Of a DNA stretch of 10,974 nucleotides, positions 1,827-10,796 are shown piece after piece (the stretch's first letter is position 1; each line of letters opens with the position of its first letter). The notes under the pieces were generated by a model. That model worked only from the letters and a program-made list of their open reading frames with translations. It ran no database searches and was not told the origin of the DNA. The translations under genes and the position numbers were made by a program. This DNA comes from Lachnospiraceae bacterium (GTDB lineage: Bacteria; Bacillota; Clostridia; Lachnospirales; Lachnospiraceae): positions 1-10,974 of the forward strand of contig CAAEAB010000063.1 of assembly GCA_900753685.1 (NCBI GenBank), read 5' to 3'.

Positions 1827-2378
1827 CTATCCAAATAACTCCAATACCATCTGAGCCGTTTCTACCATACTGGTCCCATTACTCATGCTGGTTTTTTGAA
1901 GATAACGATGTGCCTCTTCCTCCGTATATTTTTTCGCTTCCATTAACAGACTTTTTGCACTGTCAATGAGAATACGTTCTTCCCCCGAACGGCTCTTCGG
2001 CATTTCGCGACGTTTTTTGCGTCTGCGCAGCATCGTCGTCTCCAAAAGCTCGATATTATTCATGAATGTCTGGGTTTTCATCGGCAGCGCAATTTTCAGG
2101 ACTTCCATATATTCCATCTGTCCCAAAGCGACCTGAGAACCCATAACGACCATTTCATAATATTCGGGCAGGTACTTATGCAGATTGAAACAATCCATAT
2201 CGCCCAAACGGCAGCCGCAGATGACAATGCCATCGGAATCGATCATCTGGTCAATGACATTTAATACGGCGGCGCCGCTTGTACAAACCCCGACTACATT
2301 ATACCCAAAACGTGTCAACAAATTTCGTATATTTGCCGCATCTGTCTGTTTCTTAAAGGCTACGATTATGCTGACCAT
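1827..2378 (-). CDS. ANTAR-domain antiterminator with a pseudo-receiver domain (NitR-like)
   Basis: This 183-aa protein is a REC-ANTAR regulator. Residues 1-115 have the alternating beta/alpha pattern of a receiver (MVSIIVAF, YNVVGVCTSG, GIVICGCRLGD, LPMKT). The phospho-acceptor Asp at the end of strand 3 is missing: the segment reads IVICGCRL, and the N-terminal acidic pair is also absent. Residues 116-132 are a basic linker (RRRKKRREMPKSR). Residues 133-183 are a three-helix ANTAR domain (ERILIDSAKSLLMEAKKYTE, EEAHRYLQ, then a last helix ending MVLELFG). ANTAR domains bind RNA hairpins and prevent termination. The ATG at 2378 is preferred because GAGGTGA upstream is well placed; GTG 2390 and ATG 2387 lie within that site. 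It starts 39 bases after glnA. From memory, Clostridium saccharobutylicum has a comparable glnA-linked regulator called NitR. Control of glnA is inference. Confidence 0.9.
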   Translation of the reverse strand: MVSIIVAFKKQTDAANIRNLLTRFGYNVVGVCTSGAAVLNVIDQMIDSDGIVICGCRLGDMDCFNLHKYLPEYYEMVVMGSQVALGQMEYMEVLKIALPMKTQTFMNNIELLETTMLRRRKKRREMPKSRSGEERILIDSAKSLLMEAKKYTEEEAHRYLQKTSMSNGTSMVETAQMVLELFG

Positions 2379-2417
2379 TTCTCTCATCACCTCGGTTTAC
2401 TGTATGTCGGTCGGCCA

Positions 2418-3749
2418 TTAGATCCGGTATAAATATTCTTCGATCTCCCATTCAGTTACCTGAACCCGGTAGTTTTCCCATTCTTTATATTTTGCCTCGA
2501 TATATTTCTCGCTGACATGCTCACCCAGCACATTGCGGATAAAGGCATCCTTTTCCAGTTCCCGTGTCGCCTCACACAAATCCTGCGGAAGACTTTCGAT
2601 GTGAAGCGCTTCCTTTTCGTTTCTGTCCATCTCGAAAATATTCCGGTCAACCCTTGCCGGAGGAACAAGCTTTTTCTTGATTCCCTCCAGCCCTGCTGCC
2701 AGGCAGACAGCCAGAACAAGATAAGGATTACATGCCGGATCCGGGCAGCGCAGCTCCACACGGGTTCCTTTGCCCCGTGCCGCCGGCACACGCACGAGAG
2801 GACTCCGGTTCATCACAGACCAGGCGATATAAATCGGCGCCTCATAGCCGGCCACCAGACGTTTATAGGAATTTACCAGCGGATTCGTCAGAGCTGTCAT
2901 ACCTTTGGCATGGGCCAGAATTCCGGCAATAAAATGATAGGCGTCTTCACTCAATTCCAGTTCGCCTTCCGGATTATAGAAAATATTATGCCCGTTTTTC
3001 TGCATGGACATGTTAATATGCATACCGGAACCGGAAACTCCCGACTTCGGCTTCGGCATAAAGGATGCATGTAAGCCGTGGCGCTTGGCAATAGATTTAA
3101 TGACCAGCTTTAAAGTCATGATATCATCGGCTGTCTGTAAAGCTCCGTTGTGAGCAAAATCAATCTCATGCTGGGCGGAAGCGACCTCATGATGGGACGC
3201 CTCGATTTCAAAGCCCATGTCCTCCAGATTCAATACCATATCCCGGCGGGCGTTTTCTCCCAGATCCACCGGACCCAGATCAAAATAGCTGCCCTTTTCA
3301 TGGGTAATCGTCGTCGGCATACCGTTATCATCCGTATGGAAAAGGAAAAATTCACATTCCGGTCCGACCTCAAACTGATAGCCCATATCCTCAGCCTGCT
3401 TAATGACCTTTTTTAAAATATATCTCGGATCGCCCTCAAACGGCTCCCCATTCGGACGGTATACGTCACAGATCAGGCGGGCAACCTTTCCCTGCTGAGG
3501 ACGCCACGGAAAAATCTGGAAGGTATCCAAATCCGGATGAAGATACATATCCGATTCCTCAATTCGAACAAAGCCTTCGATGGCCGAACCGTCAAACATA
3601 CATTCATTTTTCAGCGCTCTTTCGATCTGACTGGCCGTAATCGCCACATTTTTTAAGGTTCCGAAAATATCTGTAAACTGTAAACGGATAAATTCAACAT
3701 CGTTATCCTGAATCATACGGATAATATCCTGCTTAGTATATCTTGACAC
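2418..3749 (-). CDS. glnA: Glutamine synthetase, type I-alpha
   Basis: GlnA (443 aa) is the cytoplasmic dodecameric enzyme that makes glutamine from glutamate, ammonia and ATP. An N-terminal beta-grasp domain (1-105) is followed by the catalytic domain. Visible motifs are [10 protein letters not shown] (51-60), metal-ligand ECE (131-133) and [10 protein letters not shown] (186-195), SGMHINMS (241-248), flap [13 protein letters not shown] (293-305) and NRSPLVRVP (314-322). Length and the lack of the extra segment and adenylylation Tyr place it in GSI-alpha, the Firmicute type regulated by feedback inhibition. Arg62, the position linked to feedback inhibition in Bacillus subtilis, is present. 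The start is GTG: an in-frame TGA lies immediately upstream, and [11 protein letters not shown] is the conserved N-terminus. A nearby ATG at 3753 is in another frame. glnA has its own candidate promoter and a leader hairpin, and is followed closely by the ANTAR gene. Ala56 replaces the more usual Ser, a mild change. Confidence 0.98.
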
Positions 3750-3763
3750 TCATTTTCACTCCT
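3733..3763 (-). promoter_or_regulatory. glnA ribosome binding site, GTG start and overlapping out-of-frame ATG
   Basis: AGGAG at 3759-3763 lies nine bases before the glnA GTG (3749) and five bases before an ATG at 3753. Translation from that ATG gives only MSVKIY and a TAA at 3733-3735, so it cannot start glnA. The two starts sit in ATGAGTG. The ATG may be chance, a decoy, or a re-initiation device; only its existence is certain. Confidence 0.6.
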
Positions 3764-3769
3764 TTTTTT

Positions 3770-3805
3770 AAAAAAAGGCGTACTTATACAGCTAAGCACG
3801 CCTTT
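3770..3805 (-). terminator. Rho-independent terminator hairpin between carB and glnA (probable glnA leader attenuator)
   Basis: On the minus strand AAAGGCGTGCTTA (3805-3793) pairs with TAAGTACGCCTTT (3786-3774). This is a 13-bp stem with one G-T pair and a 6-base loop GCTGTA (3792-3787). Seven T follow (3776-3770, the first three shared with the stem), then seven A leading into the glnA AGGAG. It is a textbook intrinsic terminator and would end carAB transcripts. It also lies downstream of the candidate glnA promoter, so it would block glnA unless bypassed. The 6-base loop recalls ANTAR target hairpins: position 4 is G as in the known consensus, but position 1 is G rather than A. Confidence 0.85.
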
Positions 3806-3818
3806 GTGTTATGGGCTA

Positions 3819-3848
3819 ATCATATCAGCTAATCCCATATTTTGTCAA
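3819..3848 (-). promoter_or_regulatory. Candidate glnA promoter inside the carB 3' end
   Basis: On the minus strand, TTGACA (3848-3843) is a perfect sigma-A type -35. After an 18-base spacer comes TATGAT (3824-3819), matching five of six -10 positions. The -35 lies within the carB codons for Ile-Asp-Lys near the C-terminus, and the -10 follows the carB stop. The start point would be near 3812, giving a leader of about 63 bases that contains the hairpin at 3770-3805 from about position +8. It was read by eye without a scoring matrix. Confidence 0.6.
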
Positions 3849-8461: not shown

Positions 8462-9709
8462 ATGCCAGAAACAAATTTAATTGATAAGGGGCAACTCCGT
8501 ATCTCTGCGGTCTCCGAACAGGGAAACGTCCCGATTGACAATGCAACTATTGAAATATCCTTCACCGGCGAACCGGATCAGATTCTGGAACAAATCACCA
8601 CAGATAACAGCGGCAACAGTGATACCGTCGAACTGGGCGCCCCACCTGTAGAATACAGCCTTGAACCGGGAGATAATCAGCCCTATTCCGAATATAATCT
8701 GAAAATCACCGCCCCGGGCTTTGAGGAGGTGGAAATTTCCGGCATACAGATTTTATCCGGACAGCTTGGCTTGTCCAATGTCCGGATGACCCCTGTCGTC
8801 ACCCAGACACCAGCCTATAATCCACTGGTCATCGGCGCCCATACTCTCTGGAAACTCTATCCGCCAAAAATTGCCGAGGCAGAGATCAAGGATATCGACG
8901 AAACCGGCGAAATCGTCCTCAGCCGGGTCGTTATTCCTGAAACCATCATCGTCCACGACGGACCGCCGACAGACAGCAGCGCTGCCAACTATTTTGTCCC
9001 ATTCCGCGATTACATTAAAAATGTAGCCTCCAGTGAAATTTACGCAACCTGGCCCGAAACCACCATCATTGCCAATATTCTCGCCATTTTGTCCTTCACC
9101 CTGAACCGGGTTTATACCGAATGGTACAGAAACAAAGGCTACGACTTTACCATTACCTCTTCCACAGCCTACGACCATTTTTTTGTCTATGGACGAAATG
9201 TCTATGAGAGCATCTCCCGAGTCGTGGATACGATTTTCTCCAATTTCTTATCCCGACCAAATGTACGACAGCCGATTCTTACCCAATACTGCGACGGCAA
9301 ACGGGTCAGCTGCCCGAACTGGATGTCCCAGTGGGGCTCCAAAGCACTTGGAGACCAGGGGTACACGCCGCTGGAAATTATCCGCTATTATTATGGAAAT
9401 GATATGTACATCAATACCGCTGAACAAATCAGCGGCATCCCATCGTCATGGCCCGGAGCCAATCTAACCGTCGGTTCTACGGGCTCCAAGGTCCTCCAGA
9501 TGCAGGAACAATTAAACCGCATTGCTCAGGCCTATCCGGCCCTTCCGACAATTACGGCCGACGGTATTTTCGGTGAAAGAACACGCCAGGCCGTCGCAGA
9601 CTTTCAGCGGATTTTCGGCCTTCCGGTCACCGGTATCGTCGACTATCCGACCTGGTTTAAAATCAGCGACATTTACGTGGGCGTCTCCCGAATCGCCGAA
9701 TTGCAATAA
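8462..9709 (+). CDS. SleC-like spore cortex-lytic protein: SpoIID-like domain plus peptidoglycan-binding domain
   Basis: This 415-aa protein resembles clostridial SleC, a spore cortex hydrolase used in germination. Residues 10-112 look like a carboxypeptidase-regulatory/prealbumin-like beta domain (RISAVSEQGNVPIDNATI). A linker with VIPETIIVHDGPP (157-169) follows. Residues 180-320 form a SpoIID/LytB-like lytic domain: IYATWPETTIIANILAIL (193-210), FTLNRVYTEWYRNKGYDF, STAYDHFFVYGRN, CDGKRVSCPNWMSQWG (277-292) and IIRYYYGNDM. Glu199 is at the place where the SpoIID lytic Glu is expected. Residues 337-402 are a PG_binding_1 domain (VGSTGSKVLQMQEQL, DGIFGERTRQAVADFQ). There is no signal peptide, consistent with production inside the sporangium. 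SleC is made as a precursor activated by Csp proteases in Clostridium perfringens; no csp gene is in view. It may be a SleC paralogue rather than the orthologue, so no symbol is given. Confidence 0.8.
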   Translation: MPETNLIDKGQLRISAVSEQGNVPIDNATIEISFTGEPDQILEQITTDNSGNSDTVELGAPPVEYSLEPGDNQPYSEYNLKITAPGFEEVEISGIQILSGQLGLSNVRMTPVVTQTPAYNPLVIGAHTLWKLYPPKIAEAEIKDIDETGEIVLSRVVIPETIIVHDGPPTDSSAANYFVPFRDYIKNVASSEIYATWPETTIIANILAILSFTLNRVYTEWYRNKGYDFTITSSTAYDHFFVYGRNVYESISRVVDTIFSNFLSRPNVRQPILTQYCDGKRVSCPNWMSQWGSKALGDQGYTPLEIIRYYYGNDMYINTAEQISGIPSSWPGANLTVGSTGSKVLQMQEQLNRIAQAYPALPTITADGIFGERTRQAVADFQRIFGLPVTGIVDYPTWFKISDIYVGVSRIAELQ

Positions 9710-9722
9710 AAATATTCATAAG

Positions 9723-10796
9723 CTATTCGCTCACCTGATGTTTTGCAAAAATCTTTCGGGAAAATACAAAGCTTAAGGCTGTCAGCGCAAATGTCACAGG
9801 GACAGCCCATATAGCATAAAGGAGTCCTCCCTTTATTTGCTCTACAGACATCAAAGAAACAAACTGGGCATGATATACAGGAAACAGTCCGATGATTCGG
9901 AACAGCGGATGAGTCGCCGCAACAGGCAGCATAACCGGAAATAAATACGCTGCTGCTGAAAAAGCCAGCGCCGCCATTTGATTTTTAGACAAAGCAGAAA
10001 AAATTAAAGTCATTGCGGCGGCGCTGATCGCTCCGGTAACCGCCAAAAGACATTGATATTTAAGCAGCGTACCGCAGGTTATATTGAAAGGTATATATCC
10101 TTCCGTAAAAAGTAACGGGGCAAACAGGATACTACAGTCCAGCCCTTCATTTCCATAAAGCCAAAAGGCTATTAATAAATTAACCGCAAGAGCCCCTAAG
10201 GTTACTATAAGAGCCGCCCCGAATCCGGCAACAATCTTTGCCGCGGCACATTTTGTTTTTCCATATTTACTTGATAAGATAATATGGTCAACGCCGCCGT
10301 ATTCCGCCGAAAAAACTGGGGCCGTCATTATAATAATGACCAATGAAAGAAAAATGATGATTTTAATCATATCCTGGCTCACGCCAAGCCACCCGTCGAC
10401 ATATCCGACTTTAATTTTCTCATTGCCAAATACGTCGGAAACCGTCAGCCCGTTCCAATTGCCATCAATATCTGAAAATCTGGCACACACCGCAGACTGT
10501 ATAGTATTTTGATAAAGATATTTTGCGTTGATATCCGATTCCACATAAAAATCCGCCAACATCTGCCCTACCTTTTCGTCCGTCAGCGGTCCGCTGTACT
10601 TTTTTGCAATGGCCTTATCGATTTCCACAGCCTCCCTGCCGGTTCCTTCCCGGTTGATGCCGTCGAAGGCGTACTTATTCTGGTAAGTTGAAAACATGAA
10701 TAATATCGATATAAAAATCAGGCCAAGCAGAAAAATCTGCGTCAGACGCCTTGAAAAAATTTTTCTCAGTTCAAATTGAATCAATCTTGCCATCAT
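9723..10796 (-). CDS. ABC-2 type transporter permease
   Basis: This 357-aa integral membrane protein is an ABC-2 permease, partner of the ATPase encoded just upstream. It begins MMARLIQFELRKIFSRRLTQ, the amphipathic start common to this family. About six membrane segments are visible: 19-36, 143-163, 187-214, 244-269, 273-294 and 324-346. A large hydrophilic loop (about 37-140), probably extracellular, separates the first two. The motif SAEYGGVDHIILSSKYGK (163-180) after segment 2 is typical of bacitracin/lantibiotic-type or generic ABC-2 permeases. The substrate cannot be told. The ATG at 10796 overlaps the ATPase stop as ATGA and has a G-rich ribosome binding site at 10802-10807, five bases away. 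The ATG at 10793 is an alternative. It converges on the SleC-like gene with only 13 bases between stops. Confidence 0.88.
   Translation of the reverse strand: MMARLIQFELRKIFSRRLTQIFLLGLIFISILFMFSTYQNKYAFDGINREGTGREAVEIDKAIAKKYSGPLTDEKVGQMLADFYVESDINAKYLYQNTIQSAVCARFSDIDGNWNGLTVSDVFGNEKIKVGYVDGWLGVSQDMIKIIIFLSLVIIIMTAPVFSAEYGGVDHIILSSKYGKTKCAAAKIVAGFGAALIVTLGALAVNLLIAFWLYGNEGLDCSILFAPLLFTEGYIPFNITCGTLLKYQCLLAVTGAISAAAMTLIFSALSKNQMAALAFSAAAYLFPVMLPVAATHPLFRIIGLFPVYHAQFVSLMSVEQIKGGLLYAIWAVPVTFALTALSFVFSRKIFAKHQVSE

Follow-up and report, generated by a model that had tools for sequence, protein, structure and literature searches.

The window, by which we mean the whole stretch of 10,974 nucleotides of Lachnospiraceae DNA analysed here (contig CAAEAB010000063.1), carries carA, carB, glnA, an ANTAR regulator gene, a gene for a DUF4349 protein and gatC/gatA, all on the (-) strand. 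The carB, glnA, ANTAR and DUF4349 proteins were named by family scan, and carA, gatC and gatA by eye from their translations. The glnA gene (2418..3749, (-) strand) encodes a type I glutamine synthetase of 443 aa (TIGR00653, 566 bits against a cut-off of 429), beginning with a GTG codon at 3749 behind the ribosome binding site AAAGGAG (3759..3765, (-) strand). The preliminary description of this DNA had placed an ANTAR protein after glnA, and the family scan agrees: the product of 1827..2390 ((-) strand) matches PF03861 at 58.8 bits (Pfam cut-off 27.3, E-value 4.6e-16) and comprises a receiver-like N-terminal domain without a phospho-acceptor Asp and an ANTAR domain. Elsewhere in the window, a (+) strand gene divergent from carA (8462-9709) gives a weak SpoIID/LytB-like match together with a C-terminal peptidoglycan-binding domain, and 9723-10796 on the (-) strand encodes a protein of 357 residues that neither Pfam nor NCBIfam matches at E 0.01.

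Along the (-) strand, the end of carB runs into a sigma-70-type promoter, TTGACA-18-TATGAT (3819..3848), whose -35 element falls within the last carB codons. It agrees with the consensus at 11 of 12 bases and ranks first among the window's 26 promoter-like sites (shuffled sequences hold 18.3 on average, sd 4.2). Directly after it lies a 13-bp terminator-type stem-loop (3774..3805, (-) strand, -18.3 kcal/mol) with a six-base terminal loop and a T7 tract (3770..3776, (-) strand), the first three T of which pair with A residues of the stem; then come the ribosome binding site of glnA and its GTG start. The 114-base region folds at -30.6 kcal/mol, against a shuffle mean of -17.9 kcal/mol (z -4.6, 0/200 shuffles as good). 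Promoter and hairpin are thus as first described. The glnA RNA is predicted to begin near 3812 and the T7-terminated RNA to measure about 43 bases. An inverted repeat further upstream, TATGGG...CCCATA, was considered as part of a dual-hexaloop target and rejected: it overlaps the promoter, and its loop, UGAUAU, has neither A at position 1 nor G at position 4 (A1/G4).

Searching GTDB genomes with the ANTAR protein as query gave 151 relatives, and the best 80 of the 151 were used. At all 80 of these loci glnA lies directly upstream of the ANTAR gene on the same strand; the closest relative is Frisingicoccus caecimuris (L001), at 93% identity. We compared 79 leaders, namely the window and 78 others, with L033 and L052 excluded as ended by the contig end. 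Within 250 bases 5' of glnA, 71 of the 79 have a promoter with at least 5/6 of the -35 bases. The arrangement of a promoter with such a hairpin directly behind it is found again in many Lachnospiraceae glnA-ANTAR loci, and most promoter-bearing leaders go on as GAACAARGGCGTTCTTA ... TAAGAATGCCYTTTTT; the 5' arm is matched at 12 or more of 17 places in 64/79 leaders, a few of them by chance. Two different glnA-ANTAR pairs, L049 and L077, stand on contigs of one metagenome-assembled genome (RGIG9054), which has either two copies or a mixed assembly. The covariance search against RNA families suggested at the outset as a check found no known family here: the Rfam scan of the window gave seven matches at E up to 10, every one far below gathering score, and in a scan of 10 loci it gave tRNA and TwoAYGGAY only, with nothing at the leader. 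The TwoAYGGAY RNAs (RF01731) near glnA-ANTAR loci are L003:7591-7754, L016:6724-6889 and three more in L003/L016, three of the five being on the opposite strand.

The preliminary description had taken the six-base loop of the terminator as the site of the ANTAR protein and had pointed to conservation of hairpin and loop in relatives as a check. The helix covaries: in alignment A1 (29 elements) 95.7% of its cells are paired, with 29 double changes. The terminal loop is not conserved, even in the closest relatives, reading GCUGUA in the window (3787..3792, (-) strand), CCUGUU in L001 and AUGGA in L002, with lengths from 4 to about 40 bases elsewhere. Being free in sequence and length, it cannot be a conserved protein site. 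The hexaloop that does fit lies in a competing fold, a mini-hairpin P1 at the predicted 5' end of the RNA (3797..3808, (-) strand), CAC[AAAGGC]GUG, identified by conservation and covariation and carrying the A1 and G4 of an ANTAR-type hexaloop. An attenuator leader tied to the ANTAR protein is supported; the terminator loop as its site is not.

The P1 consensus is AC[RANGNN]GU and takes the form GAAC[AARGGC]GUUC in the glnA leaders of relatives, where it is drawn from the terminator 5' arm; the window has C-G at the third pair, where A-U is usual. An A1/G4 hexaloop on at least three stem pairs lies within 24 nt of the -10 element in 51/71 promoter-bearing leaders, against a background of 9.5% among 5000 random places, a few of the leaders so counted (e.g. 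L046) having a different motif. With either A or G at position 1 and G4 the count within 24 nt is 61/71, and the promoter or such a hexaloop after it is missing in 18/79 leaders. Four glnA leaders (L009, L011, L012 and L046) have a TTGACAAAAAGT promoter and no hairpin, despite a linked ANTAR gene.

The loop and 3' strand of P1 are contained in the terminator 5' arm (3797-3808 overlaps 3774-3805), so the two folds exclude each other, whereas the P1 5' strand is outside the terminator stem, which makes covariation in P1 independent of the terminator. In alignment A1, 96.6% of P1 cells are paired, compared with 35 to 60% for slid versions, and seven cells are changed on both sides (shuffle mean 2.3, 0/500 as high, in shuffles that ignore kinship). 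We then built a covariance model, R1, that holds the pairs of the long helix only, excludes the promoter and contains the letters of P1 without its pairs. Its genome matches gave 135 distinct elements, excised at one fixed offset without regard to pairing. Among them P1 pairs 1 to 5 are formed in 131, 132, 131, 121 and 80. Pairs 1 and 2 are nearly invariant and thus uninformative for covariation; the highest counts that 500 shuffles gave for pairs 3, 4 and 5 were 126, 107 and 78, all below those observed, and pairs 6 to 8 stay within the shuffle range. The 134 elements absent from both the R1 seed and the 79 leaders behave alike, with pairs 3, 4 and 5 in 130, 120 and 79 against shuffle maxima of 127, 106 and 76. 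In the loop, position 2 is A in all 135, position 4 is G in 134 and position 1 is A in 118 and G in 17, although R1 carries the P1 letters and the conservation of loop and closing pairs among its matches is partly by selection.

The same inverted repeat could in principle be a DNA operator, to which a nitrogen repressor binds just downstream of the promoter. It lies about 6 to 13 bases past the -10 element in the element-bearing glnA leaders, a position that would suit an operator. We regard this reading as very improbable, as the spacer between the arms ranges from 4 to about 40 bases and conserved G-U pairing, as at pair 15-43 (GU in 19 and GC in the other 10 of 29 elements), is consistent with RNA.

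The window's own element is a weak member of the group, and the glnA copy may be fading in this clade while the regulon stays. P1 has three pairs in the window, and in the glnA copies of L001 and L002 only two without a bulge; a one-base bulge giving five pairs in all three was considered and found possible but unfavourable (+0.6 to +0.8 kcal/mol). Since pairs are so few in the window, L001 and L002, the glnA copy of the clade may be decaying. The energy of P1 is -1.5 kcal/mol in the window and -1.6 kcal/mol for the consensus. F. caecimuris has stronger P1 copies at glnK (AAGAC[AAAGAC]GUCUU, 5-bp) and at a type III glutamine synthetase gene, where the elements, before glnK-amtB and the synthetase, have weak R1 scores (E 0.12 and 0.015, respectively).

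Classical ANTAR targets have two hexaloops, and a two-hexaloop target might be present after all if P1 were joined by a mini-hairpin from the terminator 3' arm, (U)AAG[AAUGCC]YUU. An A1/G4 hexaloop with at least three pairs is found in the 3' arm in 31/63 of the glnA leaders having a P1 candidate, and one occurs downstream of P1 in 36/87 elements of the family sample, above a background of 19%. We consider a second site of this kind unlikely. The 3' arm hairpin shows no covariation (82.8% of cells paired versus 82.1% in shuffles), it largely follows from complementarity to the 5' arm, the window lacks it (U1), and 51/87 elements have no A1/G4 hexaloop downstream of P1. A second A1/G4 hairpin upstream of P1 occurs in 15/88 (family sample, L108 included), against a background of 16%; because the promoter abuts P1, there is little room upstream of it in glnA leaders, and the view that this leader is too short for the classical two-hairpin target holds. 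With no second conserved hexaloop found, the leader has the look of an ANTAR antitermination variant that naturally uses one hexaloop.

R1 also finds places beyond glnA, in the genomes of 27/80 loci. We examined 22 of these (E 6e-7 to 0.12) and found glnK and/or amtB in eight, a type III glutamine synthetase in four, an operon with a circularly permuted ATP-grasp gene in three, and a urea-transport-like binding protein (a name taken from an NCBIfam match below cut-off), formate-THF ligase, serine dehydratase and an aminotransferase in one each, the remaining three being without a clear gene class; the Pfam check covered one example of every class in this list up to serine dehydratase, and so not the aminotransferase. 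C. catus (L010) has no element at glnA and has matches before a type III synthetase and glnK.

In a search of 120 genomes of the family, R1 matches at E up to 0.01 were present in 61. Sorted by BLAST to reference proteins, 94 matches (the rest were already in the set or the reverse strand of one that was) precede glnA in 27 cases, a type III synthetase in 23, glnK in eight, amtB in three, the ATP-grasp operon in five and urtA in two, with 26 unassigned. Ten of the 26 were scanned. The NCBIfam matches above cut-off are glutamate dehydrogenase, carA, DapF and LL-DAP aminotransferase; those below it, some from incomplete proteins, are asparagine synthase, two of glutamate synthase and two GlnQ-like ABC proteins; the tenth is PPDK-like (Pfam). 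P1 with at least three pairs is found in 87/94 matches. A strong promoter (at least 10/12) abuts the element at glnA in 24/27, glnK in 7/8, amtB in 3/3, the ATP-grasp operon in 3/5, urtA in 1/2 and the unassigned genes in 9/26; at type III synthetase genes the count is 0/23, so those leaders must start differently. At class level, 20 matches, of which 18 come from ANTAR-bearing genomes, all have an A1/G4 P1 of 3 to 8 pairs at the expected place, several of them with compensating stems such as GUGAAC/GUUCAC, AUUGAAC/GUUCAAU and UUAAGAAC/GUUCUUAA. Among the genes downstream, judged by eye, are glnA, genes for a type III synthetase and an ammonium transporter, and glutamine amidotransferase parts of glutamate synthase. 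An element before the circularly permuted ATP-grasp gene is seen in L109, L116, L128, L161, L166, L187, L193 and L214, with an alpha-E gene after it in L116; such a position would put the ATP-grasp operon under nitrogen control.

Because the same element precedes other nitrogen genes, the idea of a circuit self-contained at glnA is too narrow. The recurrence also bears on a simpler account, in which the hairpin is merely a carB terminator or 5' stabiliser, P1 is accidental and the ANTAR protein acts elsewhere. The hairpin does directly follow carB in the window, and L009 to L012 lack the element in their glnA leaders despite a linked ANTAR gene. Within the flanks examined, however, carB precedes glnA at only 3/80 loci (L001, L002 and L010), yet the element is common; the P1 5' strand covaries though it lies outside the terminator; and the element recurs at other nitrogen genes. 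We therefore hold that account to be improbable and retain attenuation under the ANTAR protein as the preferred reading.

The link to the ANTAR protein was also apparent across genomes. An ANTAR gene is present in 105/120 family genomes, exactly one in 103, and elements occur in 60/105 genomes with the gene as opposed to 1/15 without (Fisher p 0.0002, a test that, like the shuffles, ignores kinship). The one exception, G139, has P1 before a type III synthetase. Among 291 genomes of the class, elements are found in 51/143 with an ANTAR gene versus 13/148 without (p 3e-8, again ignoring kinship); both samples include a few genomes from which R1 came. The match in 13/148 class genomes without a detected ANTAR gene counts against the link, and the two class-level matches examined from such genomes also show P1.

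The structural model of the ANTAR protein (pLDDT 87) combines a receiver-like fold with one long helix and three helices at the C terminus. A VIA-align comparison of the model returned mainly receiver domains and hardly covered residues past 132, so it is silent on the ANTAR half. In an alignment of 22 proteins, the position of the phospho-acceptor Asp of EutV (D54) is G in 21 and S in one. Of the EutV residues that bind G4 or form the plug, K149, E160, residue 164 (H in 21, Y in one) and M172 are kept in 22/22; R142, which likewise contacts G4, is kept in the window protein but varies in the others, and K143 and K147 are not kept. The backbone-contact loop N173/R175/R177, a feature of EutV that Pfam does not require, has all three residues replaced in 22/22 (S-G-S in the window protein; S or D, G/S/A/C and S/N/G across the 22). 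A triple alanine change at these positions in EutV abolished binding, and G4 is the base that EutV holds (PMC8934654). From the alignment, most of the base-reading part is kept and the backbone-holding loop is changed; the change may accompany the altered target or may indicate a mode of binding unlike that of EutV. Since the receiver has no acceptor Asp, the protein probably receives its signal through protein contact rather than by phosphorylation.

Sequence, conservation, covariation, gene context and co-occurrence point to transcription attenuation in the leader, under control of the ANTAR protein whose gene follows glnA, and we consider this likely; ANTAR binding, antitermination and the signal with its direction are what we infer from them. 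RNA polymerase would start near 3812, and the first bases out would fold as P1 with its hexaloop AAAGGC. Left alone, P1 would yield to the 13-bp terminator, which is far more stable, and the RNA would end near base 43. An active ANTAR protein, signalled probably by protein contact, would grip the single hexaloop, with G4 as the main contact, and keep the 5' arm out of the terminator, so that the polymerase would continue into glnA and the ANTAR gene. Given the same one-hexaloop element before other nitrogen-assimilation genes, the protein would run a small nitrogen regulon. Against this reading stand the replaced backbone-contact loop, the two hexaloops that EutV requires, the 18/79 leaders missing the promoter or the hexaloop, the few P1 pairs in the window and its nearest relatives, and the 0/23 promoter count at type III synthetase genes. 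On balance, and with less assurance, we also favour a wider reading in which Clostridia, chiefly Lachnospiraceae, control their nitrogen-assimilation regulon by a natural one-hexaloop ANTAR attenuator with a compact leader, and the driving protein belongs to a diverged ANTAR subfamily that does not depend on phosphorylation and whose gene stands next to glnA. If true, this would break the rule that ANTAR antitermination requires two hexaloops and would name the nitrogen switch of a major gut-bacterial family. A widespread natural target with one conserved 5'-end hexaloop makes the two-hairpin question directly testable.

ANTAR nitrogen regulons are already known (PMC3369931). We found no earlier description of the one-hairpin 5'-end design in the literature searched, which included PMC3369931, PMC8934654, PMC7496416 and PMC4676874 and few subscription journals; nor did titles and the beginnings of abstracts in that literature describe a Lachnospiraceae glnA leader. 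In regulons such as that of Desulfotomaculum acetoxidans, the targets likewise include P-II, ammonium and urea transporters and glutamine and glutamate synthases (PMC3369931), although those regulons were found by a dual-hairpin model and the elements here have one hexaloop in a compact leader. In solvent-forming clostridia (NitR/glnA), glutamine synthetase genes are likewise accompanied by an ANTAR or antiterminator gene; there they are paired with an antisense RNA, and the passages of PMC4676874 seen mention no hexaloop element. The same source indicates an ANTAR gene in the GS-GOGAT cluster of C. thermocellum. AmiR of Pseudomonas, a pseudo-receiver ANTAR protein, resembles the present one in a receiver that is not phosphorylatable (PMC8934654) and in His at EutV position 164, but has an AmiC partner and an amidase target.

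The closest parallel in the RNA is EutV and the eut leaders of Enterococcus faecalis (PMC3369931, PMC8934654). Common to both are an A1/G4 hexaloop with AC/GU closing pairs, a mini-hairpin overlapping an intrinsic terminator and an ANTAR protein with an N-terminal receiver; the A-U and C-G closing pairs found in P1 are those that EutV requires in vivo (PMC3369931). Unlike the dual hexaloops of eut, the leaders here have one conserved hexaloop, at the predicted RNA 5' end, and unlike EutV the receiver is without Asp and the backbone-contact loop is replaced. Set beside a classical ANTAR target, the window has an A1/G4 hexaloop on at least three pairs and its overlap with a terminator, and no two hexaloops in tandem. 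EutV grips a single hexaloop, yet two are needed to antiterminate, for a reason that Walshe and colleagues left open (PMC8934654). The same authors foresaw ANTAR sites with a single hexaloop, and the leaders described here resemble such sites, placed in an antitermination context.
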